A DNA stretch of 64,000 bases from Algibacter marinivivus (GTDB taxonomy: Bacteria; Bacteroidota; Bacteroidia; Flavobacteriales; Flavobacteriaceae), in assembly GCF_003143755.1 (NCBI RefSeq), contig NZ_QFRI01000002.1, positions 186,001 through 250,000 of the forward strand, written 5' to 3'. The notes under the pieces are model-generated. The model was not told the DNA's origin. It was given only the letters and a program-made list of their open reading frames with translations, and did no database searches. Every line of letters begins with the position of its first letter. Positions within the stretch are counted from its first letter, which is position 1. The position numbers and the translations under genes were made by a program. Shown piece after piece: positions 41,743-56,331 of the stretch.

Positions 41743-42693
41743 ATGGATGCTTTAAGAGGTTACGGAGAATTAGGTTTAGGATCACGTTTAAAGCGTGTTA
41801 GCGAATTTATGATGAAAGAAACACAACTAGTTTATAATCATTTTAATATTGATTTCGACCCTTACTTATTTCCAATATTTAAAATAATAGCTAATAAAAA
41901 CGGTGTAACCAATTCTGAAATTCAAAATTCATTAAAGTTTTCTCAACCTGCAATAACACAAGCATTAAACAAACTGAATGATAAAGGCTTGATAATTTAC
42001 AAAGGTGATAAGTTAGATAAAAGAAAAAAAATAATATCCCTATCAGAAAAAGGAAAAAAAACATTAACTCAATTAAAACCTTTATGGAAAAGTATTGATG
42101 AAGTTATAAAAGAGTACACCTTGGAAAAATCATCTTCACTTATAGAACACCTTAATAGTCTTGAAAACAAATTCAATAAAAAAAGTTTTAGTAACACCAT
42201 TATAGAAAACGTGAAAATGGAAGTAAAACAAGATATAGATATTGTATTATATAAAGAAGAATACGCTACACATTTTTATGATTTAAATGTAGAGTGGCTT
42301 AAAACCTATTTTTATGTTGAACCCTATGATAAAGAAGTATTAAATAATCCAGAAAAATATATTATTAATAAAGGTGGGCATATATTTTTCGCTCGTTTAA
42401 ACAAACAGGTTGTAGGTACAGTTGCGCTAATGCCTATTGGTGAGGATGGACTTTACGAACTGACTAAAATGGCAGTATCTCCTAAACACAGAGGTCATAA
42501 AATAGGACAGCAACTCATGCAATTCTGCATTGATTATGCTAAGTCAATGGGATTACCTAAGTTAATTCTCTACTCTAACAGAAAATTAGAAAACGCCATT
42601 TATATTTACAGAAAATATGGTTTTATTGAATTAGAAATTGAATCGAATAGCCCTTATAAACGTAGTGATATTAAGATGGAATTAATATTTTAG
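41743..42693 (+). CDS. MarR-type HTH regulator fused to GNAT acetyltransferase
   Basis: A 316-residue two-domain protein. Residues about 10-150 form a MarR winged helix (ITNSEIQ-type helices in NGVTNSEIQNSLKFSQPAITQALNKL, wing KGDKLDKRKKIISLS). Residues about 165-316 form a GNAT domain with MAVSPKHRGHKIGQQLMQF, the acetyl-CoA loop, and the terminal YRKYGFIELEI. Such fusions are known as bifunctional regulator/acetyltransferase proteins, where the enzyme domain may sense or modify the effector. A second GNAT gene follows after 7 bases. Target and substrate are unknown. Confidence 0.92.
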   Translation: MDALRGYGELGLGSRLKRVSEFMMKETQLVYNHFNIDFDPYLFPIFKIIANKNGVTNSEIQNSLKFSQPAITQALNKLNDKGLIIYKGDKLDKRKKIISLSEKGKKTLTQLKPLWKSIDEVIKEYTLEKSSSLIEHLNSLENKFNKKSFSNTIIENVKMEVKQDIDIVLYKEEYATHFYDLNVEWLKTYFYVEPYDKEVLNNPEKYIINKGGHIFFARLNKQVVGTVALMPIGEDGLYELTKMAVSPKHRGHKIGQQLMQFCIDYAKSMGLPKLILYSNRKLENAIYIYRKYGFIELEIESNSPYKRSDIKMELIF

Positions 42694-42700
42694 CTTACTC

Positions 42701-43213
42701 ATGAAATTAATAAAGGCAACATTAAACGATATCAAATCACTTCAAGAAATTTGTATTGAAGCCTATTCAAAAAGCTTTAAAGACCATTGGATAAAAAATG
42801 GATTTGATTTATACATTGATAACCAGTTTAATGAAACAAAATTAACTGAAGACATAACTAACCCAAATACAGATTACTATTTCATCTCCTTTGAAAGTAA
42901 CAATGTTGGATTTTTAAAAATTAAATACTCCATTAATAACACTTTAAATAATGATTCTGAGCTGGTAAAAATTTATATACTACCTGAATATAAAGGTAAA
43001 GGGATTGGAAAATTAGCTTTAAATCAAATTATAAACAAGCTATGCTCTATTGGTAAAAAGACTCTAATACTAGATGTTATAGATACAAACACTAATTCTA
43101 TATTCTTTTATGAAAAAATGGGATTTAAAAAAACTGGGGTTACAACTTTAGAAGAGCCCTTTTTTAGAGATGAATTAAGAGGTATGTTTGTTATGAAATT
43201 AGAATTGAGTTAA
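42701..43213 (+). CDS. GNAT-family N-acetyltransferase
   Basis: A 170-residue single-domain GNAT. The acetyl-CoA-binding loop is LPEYKGKGIGKLAL (Q/RxxGxG type) and the conserved C-terminal strand reads FFYEKMGFKKTG. The N-terminal SKSFKDHWIKNG and DNQFNETKL resemble diamine acetyltransferase-like GNATs (PaiA group), but the substrate is not certain. It lies 7 bases behind the MarR-GNAT fusion, so the two are probably cotranscribed. Its 3' end overlaps the convergent 564-residue gene by four bases with no hairpin between. Confidence 0.9.
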   Translation: MKLIKATLNDIKSLQEICIEAYSKSFKDHWIKNGFDLYIDNQFNETKLTEDITNPNTDYYFISFESNNVGFLKIKYSINNTLNNDSELVKIYILPEYKGKGIGKLALNQIINKLCSIGKKTLILDVIDTNTNSIFFYEKMGFKKTGVTTLEEPFFRDELRGMFVMKLELS

Positions 43214-44904
43214 TTTTGTACTGCCTTCAAAGAATCAATCTGTTTCTGTAATCTTTCAATTTCTTCAGCTTTCTTATCATCTTGAGGAACTACTTTAATA
43301 GAATCAATAGGTTGTTGAACCATATCAATAGTTTTAGTTTCTTCAACAAAATAATAACCAATCTTTTCGCTAGAACGCCATGCTTCATTAAGTTGATCAT
43401 AGACGGTTTTGTTCCATTGACTTGGATGTTTAACGTCTATCCAAACCACATCACGATATTCACTATCAATCAATACTAAATCTGGAGTTGCAGAACCATC
43501 AAATTGTTTAGAATCTGTATCGCTAATTGAAGATACCGTACCCATAAAAAACATACGTTTTTTGCCAGCAATATCTTTTATGTATGGTCTAAATTCAACA
43601 GGTGTGTTAGCTGTCCAATCATATTCTTTTCTAGACTCTTTCACTTTTAAAGGCATAGCAGAAACACCAGCGTATCCTTGTTTTTTAGCAGCGTGATTGT
43701 AATAATATAACTTATCAGTACCATCAGCAGGAACAAAAACACTAAAACTTAAACTAGTACGCTCATCGCCTACTGGCTCTAACCCAAACCAATGATACAA
43801 GCCACTAAAAGCACCTGTATCGGTATCTGAAAAATCAAAATCTGTTACATAAGGCTGTTGGTTTTGATCTTTTGGCATTTCAGGAATTTTAACCGCAGTT
43901 TCCATATTCCATGGTAATGGATCACTAAATCCTCCTAAAAACTTTAAAGACTCAGCTTGTAGTCTTGATACTTTTTCAGCTAAAGTATTTTGTCTGGTTA
44001 AATATTTATGATTCCTCATATTTTCAGGACTTACATAAGTTCCCTTTCCAATGAGAATACGCTCTATATAATCGTTAAAATCATGCTCTCCGTTATCTAC
44101 AACCATCACACCTCCAAAAGTTGGATAAGGAAATAGAAAACCCTTCCATTTAATTAAGCTCACTACTTGCACCCAATTTCCTGAATCGTTTTTCATATAA
44201 TACGTATCGCTAGGTTCCATGGTAAACAATTGGAAAAAGTTGAAACGTTGTACTACGGCATTATAGGTGTTTCTACTAAACTTTAAAGATTCCCCAATTG
44301 AAAAGGTTACTGGAATTCTATTTTCGCTTGAAAATCTTGGGAATGGCGTTGTACTAGATACTGCAAAAACTTCCTCGGTATTATCAGTCATACCTTGCCA
44401 CATGTATTTTTCAGTAGGTTGAATAGCCATGGTCCATTTATTCTCCTCTCCAATTCTAACTAAATGCGGAAGAGATACATCTTTAGTCTCTCCTACACTT
44501 TCATTAGCCATAGAAAAGACATTACGTAGCGGTTGAATACGTTCGTTTTGCGTTAACGGTAATTCAGCAATTTCTACTTTATTAAGGTGATTAAAAACAT
44601 TATATGTTTTCATGTAATCATACATTTTAAAGTACCAACCAACTGTATACAATATCCCAAAGAAGACAACCAAAAGTCCCAAAATTGCTAATCGTCCTGC
44701 AGAACTTGCTGATTTTCGAAATTTCCTCAAACCAAAAAACAGTACGATACCACTAAGAAGAATTATGAAAATAAATTTCCTAAAAAATAGCAATGCAGGT
44801 TGATAATCATCTCGTAATACAAATAATGCTACAAGTAAAATTAATGAAACAATAATGGTAATTGTTTTTTGCTTTTTTCCTTTATTCCAGTAGTTTTTTA
44901 TCAT
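43210..44904 (-). CDS. membrane-anchored protein of unknown function, last gene of the AAA/coiled-coil cluster
   Basis: A 564-residue protein with three N-terminal hydrophobic segments (about residues 15-31, 40-58 and 72-92), then a large globular region of about 440 residues without recognised motifs (WYFKMYDYMKTYNVFNHLN, then strand-rich sequence with many aromatics), and a C-terminal coiled segment (AEEIERLQKQIDSLKAVQ). The globular part is predicted to face one side of the inner membrane. I do not recognise the family. It is the last of seven same-strand genes and follows a second membrane-protein gene by 42 bases, so the pair may form the membrane end of the system. Confidence 0.82.
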   Translation of the reverse strand: MIKNYWNKGKKQKTITIIVSLILLVALFVLRDDYQPALLFFRKFIFIILLSGIVLFFGLRKFRKSASSAGRLAILGLLVVFFGILYTVGWYFKMYDYMKTYNVFNHLNKVEIAELPLTQNERIQPLRNVFSMANESVGETKDVSLPHLVRIGEENKWTMAIQPTEKYMWQGMTDNTEEVFAVSSTTPFPRFSSENRIPVTFSIGESLKFSRNTYNAVVQRFNFFQLFTMEPSDTYYMKNDSGNWVQVVSLIKWKGFLFPYPTFGGVMVVDNGEHDFNDYIERILIGKGTYVSPENMRNHKYLTRQNTLAEKVSRLQAESLKFLGGFSDPLPWNMETAVKIPEMPKDQNQQPYVTDFDFSDTDTGAFSGLYHWFGLEPVGDERTSLSFSVFVPADGTDKLYYYNHAAKKQGYAGVSAMPLKVKESRKEYDWTANTPVEFRPYIKDIAGKKRMFFMGTVSSISDTDSKQFDGSATPDLVLIDSEYRDVVWIDVKHPSQWNKTVYDQLNEAWRSSEKIGYYFVEETKTIDMVQQPIDSIKVVPQDDKKAEEIERLQKQIDSLKAVQN

Positions 44905-44946
44905 CTAAAATTTTATTTTTCATTTCCGCAAAAAACGGAATGACAG

Positions 44947-45462
44947 TTACATTAGGCCTTTATCCTTTAAACGTTGTCTAGCACTCTTCTCTTCTACTTT
45001 TGGTGCTTCTTTATCCTGCTCAACAACTTCTTCTACATCTTTAGTTTTCAAGTCTTCAATAAAGTCTTTTCCTTTTTCGATGGTATCTTGAACCATATCC
45101 TCAATGGAATCACTTTTTTCATCAATGACTTCACTAGATTTAAAAATAAAATTTGCTAAATATGTTCCTGCTATTGTTCCTACTATCATAGACGCAAAAA
45201 TGGAGATTGTTGCAATATCAATAGGAATTAAAAAACGTGTTACAACTATTCCGATTAAAAACAGAAACCCAATAAAAACCAATCGTAGTAAAAATGTTTG
45301 CTGATATACAAAGCCTGTTTTGTCTTCAGGCTTCATTTGAAGCTCTTTAGAGTTAATTATTTTATTAAAAAATCGATAAAGCCCGTTACCTTTAGATTCT
45401 CTCCAATACAAAAAGATTCCGAAAAGTATAGCACCAATAAATACAATGAGTTCTAGTGTCAT
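44947..45462 (-). CDS. small three-TM membrane protein with acidic/charged tail
   Basis: A 171-residue protein with hydrophobic helices at about residues 2-19, 57-77 and 84-106, then a charged C-terminal tail of about 60 residues (SSEVIDEKSDSIEDMVQDTIEKGKD) ending in SARQRLKDKGLM. No family is recognised. It lies between the DUF6638-like gene (45 bases upstream) and the 564-residue membrane-protein gene (42 bases downstream), in the same seven-gene cluster. The charged tail could be a docking site for soluble partners from the cluster; this is inference. Confidence 0.82.
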   Translation of the reverse strand: MTLELIVFIGAILFGIFLYWRESKGNGLYRFFNKIINSKELQMKPEDKTGFVYQQTFLLRLVFIGFLFLIGIVVTRFLIPIDIATISIFASMIVGTIAGTYLANFIFKSSEVIDEKSDSIEDMVQDTIEKGKDFIEDLKTKDVEEVVEQDKEAPKVEEKSARQRLKDKGLM

Positions 45463-45507
45463 GATGTTTTATATGAAGTTGTTTTCTATAAAATTAGTCT
45501 ATAATTA

Positions 45508-46743
45508 TTAAATATTGTTACTAATTGTTTCAATTGCCCAGTCTTTTAATGAATCATCCCAAGTTTTAAAACTGGCATAAAACGCTTCTTTATCATACCA
45601 ATACCAATATAAAACGTCTTTTTCTGAAATATTAACGAGTAACTTCCAGATTAAATCTTGATGTTTAGCATCTAATGAAGAATGCGGTTGGTGCAAGGCT
45701 TCAAAAAGTTTTTCATCAACAATATCAGCTATTTTAAATTGATTGCTCGTTTCTAATTTCTCTAAATAGCGTTCAACACTCATTACTTTTTTTCTAGCCT
45801 TAATATCAAGTTTATTTAAATAACTCTTAAATAATATAGGATCGTTTAAAATATCTTTTATTGGATGTTGAGGCTTTTTAAGATGTTGAACCATTTCAAA
45901 TTTTTTGATACGTTCATAACGTTTAGTCTCAACTACTTTTTCTAAATCATATTCAATAATCACATGATCTTTGAGCTTATCCATAAGTTCAGATTGTTCA
46001 ATATGATAAATCAGTACATCATAATTCGTATCCTTTATAGCCTCTTTATGCCATTCTTCATCTTCAAAAACAACTATGGGTTTTATAAAATCTCTCAACA
46101 CATAAACGCCTCCAAATGCTCTTGTATAAAATGAATCAGTTTCAAATTGTAATTGATGTAAATCTAAATCGCGTTCTCTCAAATCTCCGTAAGTCTTAGC
46201 CGAATCTAAAAGCTCTTGATGCAAATTTTCATCTATAAAATTATTACCAGTATTAAACTTTTTAACAAGTTGCAACTGCTCTTTTTGAATATACCAAAGT
46301 CTATCAATCAAGTGGAAATTGATAGTCACTTTATTGTATTTTAAAACATCTAAAGGTTCATAAAAGGCATCAATGCCTTGATCGAAATCTAAACATATAG
46401 CACAATCTCTTGTGATGTCTTTAATCTTTTCGCCATGAATTTTGAAAACAAATTTCATGATATCCCTATCAAACGTATGAAAAGGCAAATACACAGGTTT
46501 ACCTTTTTGAAGTGGAGAAATTATAATCCCATGCGGATTTGCTTCACCATTATTTAGATAACTATTATTTTTTTTTTCTTCAGCAACCTCAGGACTCCAA
46601 CCAATACCATCAATATGAAAATTTTTAAGTTTAGTTTCTGTGAAACCAAGTTTTACTAGACATTTATTGTAACGCTCAACGAGTTTTCCACTTATTGGAA
46701 TGAGTTCGCTTCTATATAATTTTGCTTGTTTTAATTTATCCAT
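45508..46743 (-). CDS. DUF6638-like protein
   Basis: A 411-residue soluble protein without signal or membrane segments. It opens with LYRSELIPISGKLVERYNKCL and continues FHIDGIGWSPEVAEEK, sequence that I associate from memory with flavobacterial proteins of the DUF6638 family; I cannot verify that here. Many aromatic and acidic residues and no known catalytic motif are seen. Its ATG directly follows the NUDIX-gene stop with no spacer, so the two are coupled. Function unknown. Confidence 0.82.
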   Translation of the reverse strand: MDKLKQAKLYRSELIPISGKLVERYNKCLVKLGFTETKLKNFHIDGIGWSPEVAEEKKNNSYLNNGEANPHGIIISPLQKGKPVYLPFHTFDRDIMKFVFKIHGEKIKDITRDCAICLDFDQGIDAFYEPLDVLKYNKVTINFHLIDRLWYIQKEQLQLVKKFNTGNNFIDENLHQELLDSAKTYGDLRERDLDLHQLQFETDSFYTRAFGGVYVLRDFIKPIVVFEDEEWHKEAIKDTNYDVLIYHIEQSELMDKLKDHVIIEYDLEKVVETKRYERIKKFEMVQHLKKPQHPIKDILNDPILFKSYLNKLDIKARKKVMSVERYLEKLETSNQFKIADIVDEKLFEALHQPHSSLDAKHQDLIWKLLVNISEKDVLYWYWYDKEAFYASFKTWDDSLKDWAIETISNNI

Positions 46744-47334
46744 TTAATCTAATAACTTATGAATTATAGCATACTGCAACAATACAATTGTTCTTGTATC
46801 TACAATTTCTCCATTATTCAACATTTTAGTAGCTTCTTCAAAAGAAATTTCCAATACCTCAATATCTTCATGCTCTGAATCTAAACCACCACCTTCATTC
46901 ACTTTCATATCACCGGTGTATTCACCAACAAAAAAGTGCATTTTCTCTGTCATTACTCCCGGCGAAGAATAGGCTTCATATACTTTTTTTACTTCTTTTA
47001 ACCTATAACCAACTTCTTCTTCAGTTTCTCTAATTATACAAGCTTCAGGGTTATCTTTATCCAACATGCCTGCAGCAACTTCAACCAACATACCATCTTT
47101 ATTATCATTCAAATAGGTTGGCATTCTAAATTGCTTAGTTAAAATAACAGTTTGTTTTTCCTTATTATAAAGAAGAATTCCTGCACCATCTCCTCTATCA
47201 TAAACCTCGCGCATTTGGTTTACCCATTTGCCATTAGGCATCAAATAATCAAAATTGACTCTATTGAGAATATAATAGTTGTCCGAAAGTAACTTTTTCT
47301 GTATGTTTTTTATTTGCTTATCACTCATTTTCAA
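46744..47334 (-). CDS. nudK: NudK-like NUDIX hydrolase
   Basis: A 196-residue NUDIX pyrophosphatase. The NUDIX box is AGMLDKDNPEACIIRETEEEVGYR, with the spacing and AG-LLD start of the E. coli NudK (GDP-mannose pyrophosphatase) and ADP-ribose pyrophosphatase group; the metal-binding REXXEE glutamates are intact. The N-terminal YNKEKQTVILTKQFRMPTYLN also fits that group. Likely substrates are nucleotide sugars or ADP-ribose. It overlaps the AAA ATPase gene by 14 bases and abuts the DUF6638-like gene, so it is locked into the operon, which suggests a role in that system beyond housekeeping. Confidence 0.88.
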   Translation of the reverse strand: MKMSDKQIKNIQKKLLSDNYYILNRVNFDYLMPNGKWVNQMREVYDRGDGAGILLYNKEKQTVILTKQFRMPTYLNDNKDGMLVEVAAGMLDKDNPEACIIRETEEEVGYRLKEVKKVYEAYSSPGVMTEKMHFFVGEYTGDMKVNEGGGLDSEHEDIEVLEISFEEATKMLNNGEIVDTRTIVLLQYAIIHKLLD

Positions 47335-49282
47335 AAGTTCTTCTTGCTTCAGTTTCTATATTTAACTGATTTACTCTAGCATCTACTTTTCGTTTAAAGT
47401 CAGTATCGGCAATAGTTGCTACGTTATCTAAATAGCGCACAACTTCTTGTCTTCTAATCTCTGAGAAATCTAAGCCTTTCATATTACCTCTCATTAATTC
47501 TTGAAGCATATTAAATTTGGTATCATAATCTTGCTTGAAATAGATTTCTGGATTTTCAAACCAATCTTCTTCCAAATCAAAATCGGTTAATCGCAATGAA
47601 ATAGCCGATTGAATATTACGAACATCACGAGATGAAAAGAACGGAAACACCGCTTGCATTTCTTTATACAAATTCGCATAAAACAAATGCTGATTTGTTT
47701 TAAAATGTTTTTCTACATTATCATAAACCTCATGAACACGAGCTTCAGTAGGTTTATCAACGTTACTCAAAATATCTCCCATATTTTTTGCTAAGCCTTG
47801 ATCTTGCAGATAACTATAATTTTCTGGTCCTTGCATATTTACAAAATCTGGCATGGTGTCATCTAATTTTCGCCACCATAAATGATCTTGATCTAGAAAA
47901 TCATGTTCTGTTCTTGCTCCATCAATTTTAAAACGCCCTTGTACACGAGAAATAACTGCTTTATCTAGCATTTCTGGCAAGTTTGTAAATAAACCTATAG
48001 AACTATTACCATAGTTAACCGCATAAGCGCCTTCAGTATATCTTAAAAACACACCAATAACTTCTTTCACGCCAGCCGAAACACCTTGAGCAGTTCGTTC
48101 TTGTAAATTATTTTCGGCATCATCTATAGGTGCAAAAATTAATTTTGAAGGATCTTGCATCGGTTTCATCCACTCCACCATTTTTTCAGCTGAACCCCCT
48201 TGAAATGTTGAAATTAAGGTATCTGGCATAGGGTGAAACAAAAAAGGAATATCTAAAGTATCACAATGTTCTTTTAATCTTGTAGCAATAGCTGCTATCA
48301 ACATACTTTTTCCTGTTCCAGGAATACCGTATCCCATAAATACAGGCATAAAACCACCTAGTTCTTGAAACGGATTTTTCTTAGCAGTAAAATCGTAGCT
48401 TAACATACGTTCTGTTAAACGACGTGCAAAATGTTTTGCATCACGATTACCAACAATTTGTTCAAATTGAATTTTATTAAATTCTACACTTTTTGCTGTA
48501 CCTTGAAATACGTTATTCCAACCTGAAACTGCAAACTCCGATTTTTCTAACTTATACGTTCTGTCTTCAATAGTTTCAGTATATTCTAAACTACTTTTTC
48601 GTAACTGAATCTCATCAATTAAAGCTTCGAAATACACTACCGTGAAATCGATAACATCTTTATCCGATTTGATAATTTCTGGATGATCTAAATACTTATC
48701 ATAATAAAACAAACTGCAAGAAATTCCTTTAATAGGAGACATTAAAGATACCTCTGGAATACCTGCAAACTTTTGCTTCATAACACTTAAATCGTCTGAC
48801 GCATGTGGTTTTAGATCGTGTAATATCTTATAAGCTTGAGCAAACAACATAAACGCTGTTGCAGTATGCATTTTACTTTCAAATTCTCGTTTTCCGCTAC
48901 TATCTAGAGCCGATTTATTTTCATTTAAGCTAGATAATCCTGATGCATCATAATAACTGTCTTTTATCCAAATCCCAAGTGTAATCCCTTCTTGAACCGC
49001 GTATAATGTTTGATTCAAATAAATAGGAATAGCAACTGAATCTGGTAATAAACGCTTTTTTAAAGCTAAAATGGTTTTTGAAACCGAAGTGATTTCTGCC
49101 GAATCTGTTCCATTATTAGCTCTTGATAAATACAACAAGATAGATTCATCCTTTCCATCTTTATCTCTATTTTTAGCCCGAGCACCTTGCTCCCATTGTA
49201 TGCTTTTCAAATATGAAGCTGCTTCATCTCGAAGCATATCTAATTCTGATAATTTTATTGGGAATGTTGAGTTGTGTTCCAT
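47321..49282 (-). CDS. AAA ATPase (classic AAA clade) of the coiled-coil cluster
   Basis: A 653-residue protein with an N-terminal domain of about 270 residues, an AAA module (about 275-460) and a helical C-terminal part. Walker A is GYGIPGTGKSM (residues 317-327); the Walker B strand LIFAPIDDAE (381-390) ends DDAE; sensor 1 is the asparagine in LFTNLPEMLD; and SRVQGRF gives arginine fingers (Arg446, Arg450). The string TNLPEMLDKAVISRVQGRF resembles the second region of homology of classic AAA proteins such as p97, spastin and Vps4, which remodel protein complexes. No protease or DNA-binding domain is seen. The likely clients are the coiled-coil or membrane proteins of this operon; that is inference. 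Confidence 0.88.
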   Translation of the reverse strand: MEHNSTFPIKLSELDMLRDEAASYLKSIQWEQGARAKNRDKDGKDESILLYLSRANNGTDSAEITSVSKTILALKKRLLPDSVAIPIYLNQTLYAVQEGITLGIWIKDSYYDASGLSSLNENKSALDSSGKREFESKMHTATAFMLFAQAYKILHDLKPHASDDLSVMKQKFAGIPEVSLMSPIKGISCSLFYYDKYLDHPEIIKSDKDVIDFTVVYFEALIDEIQLRKSSLEYTETIEDRTYKLEKSEFAVSGWNNVFQGTAKSVEFNKIQFEQIVGNRDAKHFARRLTERMLSYDFTAKKNPFQELGGFMPVFMGYGIPGTGKSMLIAAIATRLKEHCDTLDIPFLFHPMPDTLISTFQGGSAEKMVEWMKPMQDPSKLIFAPIDDAENNLQERTAQGVSAGVKEVIGVFLRYTEGAYAVNYGNSSIGLFTNLPEMLDKAVISRVQGRFKIDGARTEHDFLDQDHLWWRKLDDTMPDFVNMQGPENYSYLQDQGLAKNMGDILSNVDKPTEARVHEVYDNVEKHFKTNQHLFYANLYKEMQAVFPFFSSRDVRNIQSAISLRLTDFDLEEDWFENPEIYFKQDYDTKFNMLQELMRGNMKGLDFSEIRRQEVVRYLDNVATIADTDFKRKVDARVNQLNIETEARRTFENE

Positions 49283-49414
49283 GTTTTTTTTAGTATTCAG
49301 TCTCGGTCACGGTTAACAGTGATTACTAAACTCTGTTTACTCTAACTTAAACTGTTTATATTTTATAATTTAAATCGCAATACTGAAAACTGAGACTGCG
49401 ACTGTAAACTCTAT
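49283..49414. repeat. intergenic CAGTCTCAGT-type repeat tract
   Basis: This 132-base gap begins with GTATTCAGTCTCGGTCACGG (49293-49312) and ends with an inverted relative on the other strand, reading AGTCTCAGTTTTCAGTATT (49396-49378). The same words occur again at 56851-56869 and, in part, near 50510. I know similar low-complexity tracts as dispersed flavobacterial intergenic repeats. No gene is seen here. Confidence 0.5.
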
Positions 49415-50470
49415 TTATTTTATTTTTAATTCTGCAATTTCAATAGGAGCTTTAGCCAAATTATTCATCATTTCTGGTGTTTTGTTATAGAGCAATTGAA
49501 TAATACGATGTGGCGCTAAAACGTACTTCTGTTTAAAAACATCATCCCATTTTTGTAAAATTTGTTTACTAAAAAAACCACCTTCTTTAAATTCACTTTT
49601 AGAACTAACTTCATCTACGCGTAATGAAAGCGCATACGATTCTAAAGGTATTTCTTTTTTGCCAATACTTTCTAAAATAGTGTGGGTTACTTCATGCTCA
49701 TCTTTTGCAAAAACGTTGTGTAAAGGCCCTAAATCTATTCGTTTAATACGTTTTGGTGATACTTTAGGGAGTTTTCTATCAATAGTATACGCCATAGCGT
49801 CTAAAGACATATCTCTGTCTGCAACGGTTTTTAAAACTGTGTAAATTTCATCTCTGTAATCGTTTATTTTATTACCATCATAATTAAAATACATGAAACA
49901 GACGAAAGGACGATTATGAGATACGTCATAAAAACTCCAACTTGTAACTAAATCTGCTTCTGCATTTTCTGGAGCTCCAAGAATTTTACCTTGCACAAAT
50001 CGATTAAAAATGTATTGTTTATTTACAGACGAATAATATACTATGGATGCAGCTTGAAACAGTTTGCTTTTTTTAACTGGTTGCTTTTTTCGCATAAGCG
50101 CATCTAGAAACTCCTCTTTTAGCGTTGCTATTGGTGTTAATCTTTCAAGATATTCATCGCGTAATTCTAAATCGTTAAACAAATATCTAAACTCTAAATA
50201 ATTTGGAAATCCAGAATCTGTTAAATCAACCTTCATGTTATCCTCATCATCATACATATACTTAACACGCATGGCTTCGATAGAATACAACAGTAAATCG
50301 CAATATTGTTTAAACAATTGTACCTCAATACCATTACATATTTCTTCTCTTTGAACAGCTACAATTAATTCTTTAAAAGCAAAGTCTACCATTTTATGAT
50401 AGAAAACATAATGCTCTTTGGAATCGAGTATTGCAGAATCTAAAGGTGTAACTATGTGGTTGATTGACAT
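49415..50470 (-). CDS. protein of unknown function in the AAA/coiled-coil cluster
   Basis: A 351-residue soluble protein with no signal peptide, membrane helix or known catalytic motif. The N-terminal part is helical (VFYHKMVDFAFKELIVAVQREE), the middle contains SWSFYDVSHNRPFVCFMYFNYDG, and the C-terminal part ends LLYNKTPEMMNNLAKAPIEIAELKIK. I do not recognise the family. It lies between the coiled-coil gene and the AAA gene on the same strand, with gaps of 165 and 132 bases that contain dispersed repeats, so promoters may occur within the cluster. Confidence 0.82.
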   Translation of the reverse strand: MSINHIVTPLDSAILDSKEHYVFYHKMVDFAFKELIVAVQREEICNGIEVQLFKQYCDLLLYSIEAMRVKYMYDDEDNMKVDLTDSGFPNYLEFRYLFNDLELRDEYLERLTPIATLKEEFLDALMRKKQPVKKSKLFQAASIVYYSSVNKQYIFNRFVQGKILGAPENAEADLVTSWSFYDVSHNRPFVCFMYFNYDGNKINDYRDEIYTVLKTVADRDMSLDAMAYTIDRKLPKVSPKRIKRIDLGPLHNVFAKDEHEVTHTILESIGKKEIPLESYALSLRVDEVSSKSEFKEGGFFSKQILQKWDDVFKQKYVLAPHRIIQLLYNKTPEMMNNLAKAPIEIAELKIK

Positions 50471-50537
50471 TTTTATAATTAAAAGTGAACAATTAAAAGT
50501 TAAAAGTTCTTACTGAAAACTAGAAAGTTAATTGAAT

Positions 50538-50630
50538 GGTGCGTTAAGGGTTGAGGCATTGTTGAAGCTCATCGCAGAGAGCGACTACCGAAAGCCTGAC
50601 CCCGATTTTTTTATCGGGGTAACGCCCTAG
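50538..50630. repeat. dispersed flavobacterial palindromic repeat, copy 1
   Basis: Read on the minus strand it starts GGGCGTTACC, forms an 8-bp hairpin (ACCCCGAT at 50599-50606 with ATCGGGGT at 50613-50620), continues with a GGCTTTCGGTAGTCGCTCT stretch, and ends CAACCCTTAACGCACC. Both ends and the order of words match the copy at 55249-55352. It lies between the coiled-coil gene and the next gene of the cluster. Confidence 0.75.
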
Positions 50631-50635
50631 TTATT

Positions 50636-51979
50636 TTAAGACAGTAAATCGTCGTCGTTTGCTTCTGGTTTTGGTTTTCCTTCTGGCTCACCATCATCTC
50701 CTGAAGGTTGGTTGGCATCAGCATTGTAATAGTCTTCAAAAATCTCTTTCATATCGATACCATAACGCTCTGCAAAATTCTTTTGGATCTCGCCATCCTT
50801 AGCACGAATTTCTTGTAAAGCCTCAGCATAACTACTATAAACGCCTTGCATTACTTTCTCGTGAACTGGAATATTATCCATCATATCTTGACGCGCTTTA
50901 GCACTTGCGGTGTGCATTGAAGCCAATGTTTCACCGATATGCTCATCGGTCTTTACGCCTAAATGCTCTAAAATAGCAGCGAATTCCTGATCGGTTCTTG
51001 CTTTTAATGCCACTACATAACCATCATAATATTTAAGACGCTCTTCTGTATCAGACTTTAACTTAGCACGGTGTGTTTGAAGATTGCTACGTAAAGAGGT
51101 TAGCACCTTAATAGTTAAATTATGCTTATGAACAAAACTATCTTTACTGGCAGCTAATGTTGTGTATGCGTTTTTAAGACCTTCAAGTTCTTCAACTTTT
51201 TGTTCAAGTTGAGTTACTTTACCTATAGCTTCTGCATATTCTGCAGATTGTTTATCGGCAATATCTTCTAACTCTTGGCGCGCTTGTTTTAGTAAAGCAT
51301 ATTGCTCTTCTAACTTCGCCTCTACTTCTTTTTTCTTCTCTAAAGCTTTTGTGTGGTTTTTTGAAGCTTCAACAATGGCATCTTTCAGCTTTTCTTCTAC
51401 TTCTTTAATCTCTACTTCACGATTTTTTAAACGTGTAACAGCTGCTTGAGATTTATATGATAATTCGCTTAAAAGTGTTTGTACATCTGCGCTTTCTATA
51501 CGCTCTTGAAACATAGCTTTAGCCTTATTATCTGCCCCTGCTCTAACTTTTTCAGCTGTTTTTAAAGCATCTTCAGCTTTTTTGATTTTGCTTTTACGCC
51601 CCCAAAGGTTATTCCACCAAGTATCTGGTTTTGCTTGCGCATCTTCTAATTCAATTTTTGCACGCTCTAATGCTTTTTGAGCATCATCAATAACTTTTTG
51701 TTCTGTTGGGTTTAATGCAGAAAATTTTTCGAATATAATTCCTACTTCATCTTGATAATCGGTTAAATCTTTAATAGCATCTAAAAGCGTTGTTCTATCT
51801 TTTTCTGCCATGTGCACCACATCATCCAAAGTGGCATTCAATATTTTTTGACGCACTTCTGGGTCATCCTCTTGAGACAATTTAGATTTCATAGTGTCAA
51901 TGGCTTTCCCCCAATTAACATCTACTTTCTCTGTTTTTTCATTGGAATTGGTTTCTAATAAATCAAAATCATCAGACAT
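50636..51979 (-). CDS. long coiled-coil protein, first gene of the AAA cluster
   Basis: A 447-residue soluble protein dominated by coiled coil (about residues 92-118 and 130-275), with a further helical region to about 415 and a disordered acidic tail ending DDDLLS. A tryptophan-rich amphipathic segment DTWWNNLWGRKSKIKKA (119-135) interrupts the coil and could touch a membrane. In my memory relatives are labelled microtubule-binding protein, which has no functional support. It has some resemblance in layout to TelA and PspA-type proteins (long helices, no catalytic site) but no clear motif. It is the first of seven same-strand genes, and a natural partner or substrate for the AAA ATPase two genes downstream; this is inference. 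Confidence 0.83.
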   Translation of the reverse strand: MSDDFDLLETNSNEKTEKVDVNWGKAIDTMKSKLSQEDDPEVRQKILNATLDDVVHMAEKDRTTLLDAIKDLTDYQDEVGIIFEKFSALNPTEQKVIDDAQKALERAKIELEDAQAKPDTWWNNLWGRKSKIKKAEDALKTAEKVRAGADNKAKAMFQERIESADVQTLLSELSYKSQAAVTRLKNREVEIKEVEEKLKDAIVEASKNHTKALEKKKEVEAKLEEQYALLKQARQELEDIADKQSAEYAEAIGKVTQLEQKVEELEGLKNAYTTLAASKDSFVHKHNLTIKVLTSLRSNLQTHRAKLKSDTEERLKYYDGYVVALKARTDQEFAAILEHLGVKTDEHIGETLASMHTASAKARQDMMDNIPVHEKVMQGVYSSYAEALQEIRAKDGEIQKNFAERYGIDMKEIFEDYYNADANQPSGDDGEPEGKPKPEANDDDLLS

Positions 51980-52210: not shown

Positions 52211-52453
52211 ATGCTACAAAACAACTTACTTACATTTCTAATAGGAATTCCTTTGATAAATCAATCAGATATAGTGACTATGCTTATTATTGTCACTGTT
52301 TTTTTTGGAATTTTACTGCTTCTAGGCATTAGAAAGTCTTATAAACTTAAAAAGGAAAATGAGCGTTTAGATGCTATGAATAAAAAGATTGCTGAAGATG
52401 AAGATAAGCCTTATCAAGATTTTACTGATGGGCATATGTATGGAGGAAATTAA
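52211..52453 (+). CDS. small 80-aa membrane protein
   Basis: An 80-residue protein with one clear transmembrane helix (VTMLIIVTVFFGILLLLGI, about residues 22-40), preceded by a weaker hydrophobic stretch, then a basic coiled segment (KSYKLKKENERLDAMNKKIAE) and an acidic-aromatic end (DFTDGHMYGGN). It has its own promoter box and a weak hairpin after the stop, and is divergent from the coiled-coil operon. No family is recognised. Confidence 0.78.
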   Translation: MLQNNLLTFLIGIPLINQSDIVTMLIIVTVFFGILLLLGIRKSYKLKKENERLDAMNKKIAEDEDKPYQDFTDGHMYGGN

Positions 52454-52505: not shown

Positions 52506-54197
52506 CTATCTTACTAATTTTTTGTACTTAATACGTTTCGGCATCAAATCTCCACCTAAACGTTTCTTCTTATTTTCTTCGTAATCAGAAAAACTGCCCT
52601 CAAAGAAATACACTTGAGAATCCCCTTCAAAAGCTAAAATATGTGTACATATTCTATCTAAGAACCAACGGTCGTGACTAATAACCACTGCACAACCAGC
52701 AAAGTTTTCTAAACCTTCTTCTAAAGCTCGTAAAGTATTCACATCAAGATCGTTAGTAGGCTCATCTAAAAGCAATACGTTACCTTCTTCTTTAAGTGTC
52801 ATAGCTAAATGTAAACGGTTACGCTCTCCACCAGATAATAATTTAACTTTCTTATTTTGTTCACCTCCAGAAAAATTAAATCTGCTTAAATAAGCCCTAG
52901 AATTTACTTCTTTACCTCCCATCATTATCAACTCTTGCTCATCACTAAAGTTTTGCCAAATGGTTTTTTCAGGGTCAATATTAGAATGCTTTTGATCTAC
53001 ATAAGCTAGTTGAGCGGTATCTCCAACAACAAACTCTCCTTTATCAGGAGTCTCTTCTCCCATTATCATTCTGAAAATAGTGGTTTTACCAGCACCGTTT
53101 GGACCAATAATCCCAACAATTCCTGCTTGTGGCAAATTGAAGTTTAAGTCGTCATACAACAACTTATCATCATATCCCTTAGCAACACCTTTAGCTTCTA
53201 TTACATTGGTTCCTAAACGCGGACCGTTAGGAATGTATATTTCTAATTTTTCGTCAAGTTGTTTTTGGTCTTGACTCATTAACTTATCGTAATTCTTTAA
53301 ACGTGCTTTTTGTTTGGTTTGTCGTCCTTTAGCACCTTGACGTACCCAATCCAACTCACGCTCTAATGTTTTTTGACGTTTAGAAGCCGCTTTACCTTCC
53401 TGCGCCATACGTTTAGATTTTTGGTCTAACCAAGACGAGTAGTTTCCTTTCCAAGGAATCCCTTCCCCTCTATCCAACTCTAAAATCCAACCTGCTACAT
53501 TATCTAAAAAGTATCTATCGTGCGTTACAGCAATTACAGTTCCTTTATATTGTGCTAAATGATGCTCTAACCAATGTACAGATTCTGCATCCAAATGGTT
53601 GGTAGGTTCATCCAATAATAAAACATCTGGTTCTTTTAAAAGCAAACGACATAAAGCCACACGACGTTTTTCTCCACCAGAAAGCACACCTATTTTCTTG
53701 TCTCCATCAGGCGTTCGTAACGCATCCATGGCAATTTCTAGTTTGGTATCTAACTCCCAAGCATTTGCAGCATCAATTTGATCTTGTAATTCCGCTTGTC
53801 TGTTCATCAACTTTTCCATCTTATCTGGATCGCTATAAACTTCCTCTAAACCAAATTGGTCGTTAATCTTATTGTATTCATCAAGAATAGCTACAGTTTC
53901 AGCAGCACCTTCACGAACCACTTCCATAACCGTTTTATCATCATCAAGCTGTGGTTCTTGCTCTAAGTACCCTACAGTGTAATCTTGAGAAAATACCACA
54001 TCGCCTTGGTAATTCTTATCAACACCAGCAATAATTTTTAATAAAGTAGATTTACCAGAACCATTAAGCCCTAAAATTCCAATCTTAGCACCATAGAAAA
54101 AACTCAAGTATATATTTTTCAATACTGGCGTATTGGCACTTGGGAATGTCTTGGTTAAACCAGACATTGAGAAAATTATCTTTTTATCGTCACTCAT
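52506..54197 (-). CDS. ettA: energy-dependent translational throttle protein EttA (ABC-F)
   Basis: A 563-residue ABC-F ATPase that binds the ribosomal E site and gates the start of elongation according to the ATP/ADP ratio. Two ABC domains are joined by the P-site tRNA interaction motif. The first has Walker A GLNGSGKST, signature LSGGEKRRVALC and DEPTNHLD; the second has GPNGAGKTT, signature LSGGERNRLHLA and DEPTNDLD. There are no membrane segments. The length and the C-terminal KRIKYKKL fit EttA rather than Uup or YheS. It is monocistronic on the minus strand, 35 bases ahead of which lies the CAL67264-type gene end. Confidence 0.96.
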   Translation of the reverse strand: MSDDKKIIFSMSGLTKTFPSANTPVLKNIYLSFFYGAKIGILGLNGSGKSTLLKIIAGVDKNYQGDVVFSQDYTVGYLEQEPQLDDDKTVMEVVREGAAETVAILDEYNKINDQFGLEEVYSDPDKMEKLMNRQAELQDQIDAANAWELDTKLEIAMDALRTPDGDKKIGVLSGGEKRRVALCRLLLKEPDVLLLDEPTNHLDAESVHWLEHHLAQYKGTVIAVTHDRYFLDNVAGWILELDRGEGIPWKGNYSSWLDQKSKRMAQEGKAASKRQKTLERELDWVRQGAKGRQTKQKARLKNYDKLMSQDQKQLDEKLEIYIPNGPRLGTNVIEAKGVAKGYDDKLLYDDLNFNLPQAGIVGIIGPNGAGKTTIFRMIMGEETPDKGEFVVGDTAQLAYVDQKHSNIDPEKTIWQNFSDEQELIMMGGKEVNSRAYLSRFNFSGGEQNKKVKLLSGGERNRLHLAMTLKEEGNVLLLDEPTNDLDVNTLRALEEGLENFAGCAVVISHDRWFLDRICTHILAFEGDSQVYFFEGSFSDYEENKKKRLGGDLMPKRIKYKKLVR

Positions 54198-54513: not shown

Positions 54514-55230
54514 CTAATGCATAGGCACTTCCACAATAATAATTTCAGATGCTTCTCGCGCCAATATTTCAGTACTTTCAATATCCCAAACACCAATAGC
54601 ATCTCGCGTTTCAAGAGCCTCATTATTAATTTCAATCTCTCCTTTAACCACAAACACATAAATCCCATGATGCTCATTTTTAACAGTTAATGAAATCGAT
54701 TTTCCACCATCCAAATCAGCCCTATATATATAAGCCTGTTGGCTAATTGGCAATGCGTTACCTTCCAATTTATCCTTTGGAGCAACCACCGTTTGCAACT
54801 TGTTTTTCTGATGTTCAACATCAAATTTACGTTGGTCATAATTAGGTGCAACACCCATTTCTTCTGGGATTAACCAAAGTTGTAAAAAATTAACGGCATC
54901 CGTTTTACTATCATTAAATTCCGAATGTGTTAAACCCGTTCCAGCACTCATCACTTGCACTTCTCCCACCTCAATCGCACGGGTATTCCCCATATTATCC
55001 TTGTGTGATAATGCGCCTTTTAGTGGAATAGAAATAATCTCCATATTCTGATGCGGATGCGTGCCAAACCCCATTTTAGGTTGCACCACATCGTCATTCA
55101 ACACCCGCAACATGCCAAAATTATTACGCGCTGCATTCTGGTAACTTGCAAAACTAAACGTATGATACGATTTTAACCAACCATGGTTTGCAAAACCTCT
55201 AGTCTCTGCTCTGTGAATTGTTGTTTTCAT
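54514..55230 (-). CDS. pirin family protein (YhhW-like)
   Basis: A 238-residue bicupin of the pirin family. The N-terminal cupin carries the metal site in FGTHPHQNMEIISIPLKG (two histidines, then a glutamate) and the later GTGLTHSEFN histidine; the opening RGFANHGWLKSYHTFSFASY is typical of YhhW-type proteins, which show quercetin 2,3-dioxygenase activity in vitro. The C-terminal cupin lacks metal ligands, as is usual. The physiological substrate is unknown. A dispersed repeat and a hairpin separate it from the second pirin gene, so it is probably a separate unit. Confidence 0.92.
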   Translation of the reverse strand: MKTTIHRAETRGFANHGWLKSYHTFSFASYQNAARNNFGMLRVLNDDVVQPKMGFGTHPHQNMEIISIPLKGALSHKDNMGNTRAIEVGEVQVMSAGTGLTHSEFNDSKTDAVNFLQLWLIPEEMGVAPNYDQRKFDVEHQKNKLQTVVAPKDKLEGNALPISQQAYIYRADLDGGKSISLTVKNEHHGIYVFVVKGEIEINNEALETRDAIGVWDIESTEILAREASEIIIVEVPMH

Positions 55231-55420: not shown

Positions 55421-56293
55421 CTAATTAGCAGGAAGAAATCCCATTTTCCCCATTTGATAATCGCGCATAGCCTCCATAATTTCAGTTTGCGTGTTCATCA
55501 CATACGGGCCATAAGTGGTTACAGGTTCATTAAAAGGAACCCCCGAAAGAAACAATAGTTTACTAATTTCATTTCCTGCAATTGAAAACCCTTCTCCATC
55601 CTGATTAAATTGAATTAACTGATTTTCATTAAACTTCAAATGTTCAGCACCATTCACAACCACATCACCTTTTAATAAATAAATACTCGATTGATGTGAA
55701 TTAGGTACTTTAATATCAAACGTTCCACCAGCTTCAACATCCAGTATAAAAGCATTTACAGAAGTTTGTGTTTTAATACGTCCGTAAACTCCATCAAGCT
55801 CTCCAGCAATAATCTGAATCTTAACTTTACCATCATCAGATTTAACCACTCTAAAATCTTCATGTTTAACATGTTGATAATTCGCTTCAATCATTTTCTT
55901 TTCCGCAGGTAAATTCAACCATAACTGAATCCCTTCCAAAGTGCCGCCTTTTTGTACAAAAGCTTTTGTTGGTGCTTCAGCATGTATAATACCTCTACCT
56001 GCCGTAGTCCATTGTACATCACCTGCTTTTACAACGCTTTCATTTCCAAGCGAATCTCTGTGTAACTGCTCGCCTTGAATCAAAAATGTTATCGGTTCAA
56101 AACCACGATGCGGATGCGGCCCTAAATCAAACGGATTATTCTGTTCAGAAATCTCATAAGGTCCGTAATGATGTAATAATATAAACGGATCTATATTGTC
56201 AATCATTCTTGCTGGTATGGGCTGCCGTAATTGAATTGGGCCCATATTCACAAAATCACTTCTACCTACTCTTTTTATTGTATTTACTTTCAT
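55421..56293 (-). CDS. pirin family protein
   Basis: A 290-residue bicupin with the N-terminal metal site in GPHPHRGFEPITFLIQG and the histidine of GRGIIHAEAP. The opening IKRVGRSDFVNMGPIQLRQPIP is typical of the longer pirins. The start is set at ATG 56293; an earlier in-frame ATG at 56320 lies in the centre of a 24-bp palindrome that looks like a regulator-binding site, so translation from there is unlikely. The two pirins here belong to different subfamilies. The gene follows the MarR-type gene on the same strand; the palindrome suggests MarR control. Confidence 0.92.
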   Translation of the reverse strand: MKVNTIKRVGRSDFVNMGPIQLRQPIPARMIDNIDPFILLHHYGPYEISEQNNPFDLGPHPHRGFEPITFLIQGEQLHRDSLGNESVVKAGDVQWTTAGRGIIHAEAPTKAFVQKGGTLEGIQLWLNLPAEKKMIEANYQHVKHEDFRVVKSDDGKVKIQIIAGELDGVYGRIKTQTSVNAFILDVEAGGTFDIKVPNSHQSSIYLLKGDVVVNGAEHLKFNENQLIQFNQDGEGFSIAGNEISKLLFLSGVPFNEPVTTYGPYVMNTQTEIMEAMRDYQMGKMGFLPAN

Positions 56294-56307
56294 AATAATT
56301 ACTTTTA

Positions 56308-56331
56308 AATTATTTTCCATGGAAAATAATT
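56308..56331. promoter_or_regulatory. palindromic operator candidate ahead of the 55421 pirin gene
   Basis: A perfect palindrome: AATTATTTTCC (56308-56318), AT, GGAAAATAATT (56321-56331). Its core TTTCC-NN-GGAAA matches the second palindrome at 57847-57864. It lies 14 bases upstream of the chosen pirin start, next to a MarR-family gene. Confidence 0.65.

Follow-up and report, generated by a model that had tools for sequence, protein, structure and literature searches.

Vps4 together with ESCRT-III (endosomal sorting complex required for transport III) is confined to archaea and eukaryotes in the passages drawn from PMC10936438, and the partners of bacterial PspA include AAA proteins in those drawn from PMC11237479. 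Here we describe a cluster of seven genes at positions 43210-51979 of a 64,000-nucleotide stretch of the Algibacter marinivivus genome (contig NZ_QFRI01000002.1; this whole stretch is hereafter called the window), all on the minus strand and transcribed in the order CC447 (a long coiled-coil protein), U351, a classic AAA ATPase, a NUDIX hydrolase, a DUF6638 protein and the membrane proteins TM171 and TM564. The cluster as such is well supported; from its genes we infer a mechanism, and the cluster probably encodes a hitherto undescribed machine for the remodelling of protein assemblies at the cell envelope.

Like the Vps4/ESCRT-III pair, the cluster encodes a classic AAA ATPase with an aromatic pore loop beside an elongated helical protein, and in the flavobacterial coiled-coil proteins a variable linker leads to a short motif at the C-terminus. 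Unlike that pair, it lacks an MIT domain (no match in the AAA protein in Pfam at E up to 1) and any match to an ESCRT-III/Snf7 or PspA profile, as CC447 and its homologues P0001 and P0006 gave no Snf7, PspA_IM30 or PF05816 (TelA) match in Pfam, again at E up to 1. It resembles phage-shock-protein (PSP) and YjfIJKL-type operons (PMC11237479) in being a multi-gene set that combines a coiled-coil protein with small partners and with membrane proteins, an AAA protein being included in some of those operons, but this particular gene set is not described in the passages taken from that source. Kinship of the coiled-coil, U351 and DUF6638 proteins with PspA, YjfI and YjfK was considered and rejected at hhalign probabilities of 0.1-0.3% against single E. 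coli YjfJ, YjfI and YjfK sequences. TelA is a long helical cytosolic protein and in this resembles CC447; it differs in that neither CC447 nor its homologues match its family, and a search of 60 family genomes returned no TelA above the cut-off and one weak match below it. The comparison with PspA and TelA systems drawn in an earlier, sequence-only reading of the window therefore stands as a functional analogy and not as kinship, there being no profile link to CC447. We liken the cluster to ESCRT and PSP systems in what would be its outline of working and claim no family membership; by sequence profile, it belongs to the classic AAA, DUF6638 and NUDIX families only. In the literature searched we found no mention of DUF6638 (PF20343); DUF2333 (PF10095), a family encoded after the core genes in some plasmids (see below), is mentioned in one other context only, that of Pseudomonas type VI secretion, where a putative NUDIX gene is its neighbour, in the passages drawn from PMC5256989, and for neither family did we find a function described.

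Conservation of the unit in Flavobacteriaceae

Searches with the AAA protein matched 124 of 397 family genomes, and once ten matches that were partial and weak (E between 2e-5 and 1e-3) had been removed, 114 remained, in which the protein is either complete or truncated by the end of a contig. The CC447 profile likewise matched 114 of 397 at 1e-10, and the two sets of genomes are identical, the searches being taken as the same 397-genome draw from their equal settings, size and handles. DUF6638 was sought in 80 genomes and was found in 52 of the 53 AAA-positive ones, all outside the 60 loci introduced below, and in 0 of the 27 AAA-negative ones; among the 52 matches, those of G463 and G523 are short at contig ends and those of G502 and G339 are flagged with one stop, and the sole negative, G289, is a 73% complete genome whose AAA match covers residues 1-323 only. 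Because of these identical sets and of this distribution of DUF6638, the grouping of the genes is far beyond chance. The pairing of the AAA and coiled-coil genes put forward in the sequence-only reading is thus a real unit, and it withstood the check, proposed with that reading, of whether the genes lie mostly scattered in relatives.

Gene order was compared in two sets of loci around the AAA gene, one of 60 drawn from the 114 AAA-positive genomes and one comprising the best 80 of 379 matches, the other 299 of which may include generic AAA proteins; the two sets overlap in part (for example L037 and L108, whose contigs share a length of 281,947) and are not independent. The six genes other than NUDIX keep their order and strand in 56 of the 60 and 77 of the 80 loci, so that the membrane partners proposed in the sequence-only reading are regular members in flavobacteria, and TM171 and TM564 accompany the core in nearly all flavobacterial loci examined. 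All three exceptions in the larger set lie on short contigs, and for three of the four exceptional loci in the smaller one the absent parts were located elsewhere in the same genome. Departures from the common order take several forms: DUF6638, TM171 and TM564 about 9 kb away with other genes between (L057); DUF6638 and TM171 elsewhere on the chromosome with no TM564 seen within the 15 kb fetched (L094); CC447 at the end of another contig (L090, genome G363); and neither TM171 nor TM564 beside DUF6638 (L092). Additional open reading frames (ORFs) lie within the cluster in L059, L060, L095 and L096 with the six genes still in order, the insert of L060 being a 937-aa antisense ORF and that of L095 separating AAA and DUF6638 by about 4 kb.

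The named hosts are marine Flavobacteriaceae including Algibacter, Hyunsoonleella, Psychroserpens, Lacinutrix and Tenacibaculum, and a few of the 80 loci are metagenome-assembled genomes labelled only Bacteroidia or Flavobacteriales. In phylum-wide samples, which contain the window's own genome, the AAA protein is found full-length in 3 of 148 genomes and CC447 in 4 of 296, every one a member of this family; PF20343 occurs in the same 4 of 296 genomes as CC447 and in none of 14 control genomes.

A four-gene core in Vibrio and Rhizobiaceae plasmids

Pseudomonadota were sampled through 72,556 plasmid records, of which the same ten were matched in tblastn searches with DUF6638 and with AAA: four from Vibrio, four from Sinorhizobium, one from Shinella and one from Rhizobium leguminosarum. 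In the five loci checked (L187-L191; two Vibrio, Sinorhizobium, Shinella and Rhizobium), the order is coiled-coil protein, U, AAA and DUF6638, the two genes upstream of the plasmid AAA gene being homologues of CC447 and U351 by hhalign (cross-phylum E 1.3e-51 for AAA, 1.5e-17 for U and 2.3e-8 for the coiled-coil protein), and plasmid DUF6638 is matched at 4e-22 in tblastn with additional Pfam support. The coiled-coil proteins share 25% identity across the phyla, clearest in the C-terminal half; CC447 of the window had no tblastn match in the plasmid records, and the cross-phylum link for this protein rests on hhalign with two sequences together with gene order. When the Vibrio and Sinorhizobium proteins served as queries, U, AAA and DUF6638 again gave these ten records, and the coiled-coil protein gave eleven. 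The coiled-coil, U, AAA and DUF6638 genes are one conserved unit in Bacteroidota and Pseudomonadota; the core in the second phylum is new in this analysis, and the four-gene unit is apparently without a published description in the literature searched. The Sinorhizobium copy makes the system testable in a tractable species.

A DUF2333 gene follows the core in Sinorhizobium and Shinella, and no membrane gene was recognised after the core in the other checked loci. TM564 and DUF2333 show no detectable kinship, at an hhalign probability of 0.5% with one DUF2333 sequence. In S. meliloti Ak57, an endonuclease gene and an insertion sequence (IS) element stand between AAA and DUF6638. The eleventh record is pSK03 of R. 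leguminosarum, which represents the same locus with neighbours as in S. meliloti (thymidine kinase, choline transporter, formate-tetrahydrofolate ligase) and keeps the coiled-coil and DUF2333 genes; in tblastn searches of this record alone, U, AAA and DUF6638 were without a match. Its coiled-coil protein is 32% identical to that of S. meliloti and lacks 22 residues corresponding to about 273-294 of P0006 and about 321-342 of CC447, which places the gap within the best-conserved region of the protein, a single case that suggests that this region may serve the motor module. DUF2333 is also present in three plasmid records that lack the core; two of them were inspected, and there it is close to genes for a sigma-70-family and an anti-sigma factor, a placement that weakly fits an envelope role. 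SMc02733, which by locus-tag order only may be the S. meliloti AAA gene, appears in a list of ChvI-bound fragments in PMC3687685; we place no weight on it.

Components, proposed machine and rival explanations

The AAA protein consists of an N-terminal part of about 265 aa, the AAA domain and a C-terminal part, with no Pfam match outside the AAA domain. Its earlier classification as a classic AAA protein was borne out by PF00004 (36.2 bits against a gathering threshold of 21.2; 50.0 and 41.8 for the Vibrio and Sinorhizobium homologues) and by motifs conserved across the phyla. Walker A (GIPGTGKS) is invariant across 31 flavobacterial sequences, as are the sensor-1 asparagine N434 and the arginine fingers R446 and R450, motifs of the second region of homology that align column for column between the phyla. 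Walker B closes with DD, not the usual DE, and is invariant in six sequences spanning both phyla, across which a pore loop of the form F/Y-Q-G-G/K-S is also conserved. Searched against solved structures, the cross-phylum profile retrieved chains of VCP-like ATPase, Rpt4 and Vps4, the listed matches lying mostly over residues ~304-456, and the flavobacteria-only profile retrieved none at 0.001. Judged by its sequence, the protein is a classic AAA ATPase whose pore loop and arginine fingers are conserved.

CC447 is under very strong constraint. Its mean column conservation is 0.87, with blocks in 276-350 nearly invariant at 0.97-1.00, and its ratio of nonsynonymous to synonymous substitution (dN/dS) is 0.005, 0.016 and 0.025 in three pairs with partly saturated synonymous sites, every time the lowest of the seven genes and in two of the three pairs below that of a neighbouring ABC-F-type gene. 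The sequence FDLLET stands near the N-terminus in 137 of 137 of the coiled-coil proteins, and the DDDLLS tail singled out in the sequence-only reading is an instance of a conserved C-terminal motif, [DE][DEN]LL[SGN], found in 129 of 137 after a linker of ~20-35 residues. A structural model of modest confidence predicts long helices over most of residues 23-325; alpha-pore-forming toxins, F-BAR proteins and SMC arms were considered as fold relatives and set aside as generic long-helix matches, and no PspA, Vipp1 or ESCRT-III chain is among the fold matches listed. By sequence, CC447 has no relative in the PDB, the only match being a design protein at E 0.99.

U351 is predicted by AlphaFold with a mean predicted local distance difference test (pLDDT) of 84.5 and a predicted template modelling score (pTM) of 0.82, as a helical N-terminal part followed by an alpha/beta C-terminal domain. 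VIA-align places 6-pyruvoyl tetrahydrobiopterin synthase first (Z 8.5 over 86 residues at 2.8 A), followed mainly by uricases and GTP cyclohydrolase I and, from rank 14, by PP2C phosphatases; the best Foldseek E is 0.14. The synthase, the uricases and GTP cyclohydrolase I are T-fold enzymes, and the model hints at a T-fold-like C-terminal domain, only a hint because a Z of 8 is near the usual background. By sequence, U351 has no relative among solved structures at E up to 5. Beside this likeness we note that, in the split cluster of G363, a folE-like gene (GTP cyclohydrolase I, by eye; L090 7129-7725) precedes the AAA gene, probably by chance. DUF6638 matches PF20343 at 110.6 bits against a gathering threshold of 27. 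Membrane spans and topology were judged by eye from the positive-inside rule, no prediction tool being used: the variable tail of TM171, which ends in SAR.R(L/F)(K/R)(D/N)(K/Q)G in 130 of 134 (KSAR(E/D)RLKDKG), is read as cytosolic, and the large domain of TM564, which has no relative among solved structures (best E 1.5), as periplasmic.

We tentatively propose, with somewhat less than even confidence, a model where an ATP-driven motor acts on its coiled-coil partner in a motor-and-scaffold machine at the inner membrane. The AAA protein would assemble into a ring of six subunits, grip the coiled-coil protein with its pore loops and use ATP to remodel or disassemble coiled-coil assemblies, with U and DUF6638 as putative adaptors or assembly factors between the two. 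In flavobacteria, the C-terminal SARERLKDKG motif of TM171 may tether the cytosolic complex to the membrane and TM564 may link it to the periplasm, and in Sinorhizobium and Shinella DUF2333, without detectable kinship to TM564, would fill the membrane role; the purpose would most likely be envelope maintenance. A stronger form of the model, which we hold to be unlikely, is that of a bacterial ESCRT-like machine of an origin apart from ESCRT-III and PspA, in which the AAA ring and two dedicated adaptors, U and DUF6638, would remodel a new coiled-coil polymer at the inner membrane with anchors exchangeable between phyla. Should remodelling of the coiled-coil protein by the motor at the membrane prove real, bacteria would possess an ESCRT-like machine without recognisable kinship to ESCRT-III or PspA.

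Several observations weigh against the motor-and-scaffold model. Its basis is the genes and their sequences, from which interaction, polymerisation and an effect on the membrane are all postulated. The predicted model of CC447 is weak (pLDDT 67.4, pTM 0.46), its fold matches in Foldseek and VIA are generic long-helix proteins (best Z 13.3, in the usual range for helical models), and it shows no PspA profile similarity (hhalign 0.1% against a single E. coli YjfJ). The C-terminal DLL motif is absent from two aligned proteobacterial coiled-coil proteins, so that the motifs are not universal, and no DUF2333 was found in the record of R. leguminosarum TP16 or in those of Vibrio. Local looks at two flavobacterial genomes showed DUF6638-TM171 with no TM564 alongside (G233) and DUF6638 with neither of the two membrane genes alongside (G415); given these neighbourhoods, the membrane part is perhaps not an absolute requirement.

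That the most constrained gene is the one for the coiled-coil protein and not TM564 weighs against a possible, if somewhat unlikely, alternative, in which AAA, U and DUF6638 would act as an unfoldase or assembly factor that extracts, degrades or matures TM564 or DUF2333, with the coiled-coil protein as a scaffold or spacer and not as the client. A large membrane protein does follow the core in flavobacteria, Sinorhizobium and Shinella, and the retention of the coiled-coil and DUF2333 genes without the motor on pSK03 fits a coiled-coil-membrane protein pair; however, as TM564 and DUF2333 are not detectably related, a single motor would have to serve different clients. A cytosolic scaffold or cytoskeleton-like role in positioning, shape or division, in which the AAA protein would turn over coiled-coil filaments and the membrane proteins would be anchors only, draws on the long helices and the very strong constraint of CC447 and is nevertheless improbable, since the searches did not detect the cluster in 283 of the 397 family genomes, which argues against a general shape or division function, and the coiled-coil polymer is itself hypothetical.

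An anti-phage or other conflict system appears very improbable. Presence is patchy, and a PADLOC scan of ten proteins, NUDIX left out, gave a weak similarity of the AAA protein to IetA (E 5e-6 for the window, 6.1e-7 for Vibrio), but this match is confined to the AAA domain and the only other one at 0.01 is that of CC447 to the coiled-coil protein JetC (0.0036). Against such a role also stand the strong purifying selection and a stable chromosomal place, the ABC-F-type gene being, among the reference genes, directly upstream of CC447 in 30 of the 60 and 64 of the 80 loci; moreover, the Vibrio AAA protein has no relative in 50,697 phage records at 1e-6, and none of 57 pattern matches in viral contigs was confirmed.

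The NUDIX gene is an optional insert between AAA and DUF6638. The protein passes its Pfam cut-off (48.7 bits, cut-off 21.1) and that of TIGR00052 (YffH/AdpP; 161.7, cut-off 79.55), comes close to NudK but misses the cut-off of the NudK equivalog NF011585 (218.6, cut-off 234), and is the sole match of its kind in this genome. Co-conservation of all seven genes holds for the six others only: NUDIX is present in 24 of the 60 and 59 of the 80 loci, always following AAA directly in the order of the seven, and is missing from 36 and 21, one of the latter (L180) being cut by a contig end. Of the loci lacking it, 22 of 35 and 8 of 20 have AAA and DUF6638 separated by at most 11 nt, overlaps included and measured from mechanical ORF starts. 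Vibrio, Shinella and Rhizobium have the two genes at most about 50 nt apart in the loci checked, leaving no room for a NUDIX gene, and the annotation of the Vibrio and Sinorhizobium loci shows no such gene adjacent to the core. As the core is found without it, the earlier idea that NUDIX removes or senses a nucleotide signal loses its basis and is hardly tenable, its fixed place where present, its singularity in this genome and a putative NUDIX gene beside DUF2333 in Pseudomonas fluorescens (in the passages drawn from PMC5256989; possibly by chance) being outweighed by its frequent natural absence. Overall, the sequence-only interpretation of the cluster is partly supported.

Coordinates and genomic surroundings

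Table 1. Genes of the cluster and a repeat lying between two of them, in window positions.
Feature	Position	Strand	Remark
CC447, long coiled-coil protein	50636..51979	-	First gene; putative AAA client or scaffold
U351	49415..50470	-	Core component, no Pfam family; putative adaptor
AAA	47321..49282	-	Classic AAA ATPase
NUDIX hydrolase	46744..47334	-	YffH/AdpP (NudK-like) subfamily; optional insert
DUF6638 protein	45508..46743	-	Core component
TM171, membrane protein	44947..45462	-	Three spans by eye
TM564, membrane protein	43210..44904	-	Three spans by eye
Dispersed genomic repeat copy	50505..50640	-	In the CC447-U351 gap; no part of the machine

The run of seven uninterrupted same-strand genes described before agrees exactly with the ORF coordinates (Table 1), and no further ORF of at least 100 aa lies inside it. 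The AAA, NUDIX and DUF6638 genes overlap or abut, as had been stated: AAA and NUDIX share 14 nt with the listed TTG start of NUDIX, or 8 nt with an ATG two codons on, and NUDIX abuts DUF6638. The remaining gaps measure 165 nt (CC447-U351), 132 nt (U351-AAA) and, for the other two, 45 and 42 nt. Among the seven proteins only AAA, NUDIX and DUF6638 pass Pfam cut-offs, the scan giving no family above cut-off for CC447, U351, TM171 or TM564. A genome search with the repeat in the CC447-U351 gap returned nine matches including itself, the others at 70-87% identity.

The ABC-F-type ATPase gene (by eye; window 52506-54197) starts the upstream neighbourhood, 526 nt from CC447 on the same strand, and between the two lies a divergent 80-codon ORF (52211-52453, plus strand) for what is by eye a small membrane protein. 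On the other side, a plus-strand ORF at 42701-43213, GNAT-like by eye, shares 4 nt with the end of TM564 and stands beside a gene at 41743-42693 that reads by eye as a fusion of a MarR regulator and a GNAT acetyltransferase. Two pirin-like genes (by eye) stand in tandem on the same strand at 54514-55230 and 55421-56320.

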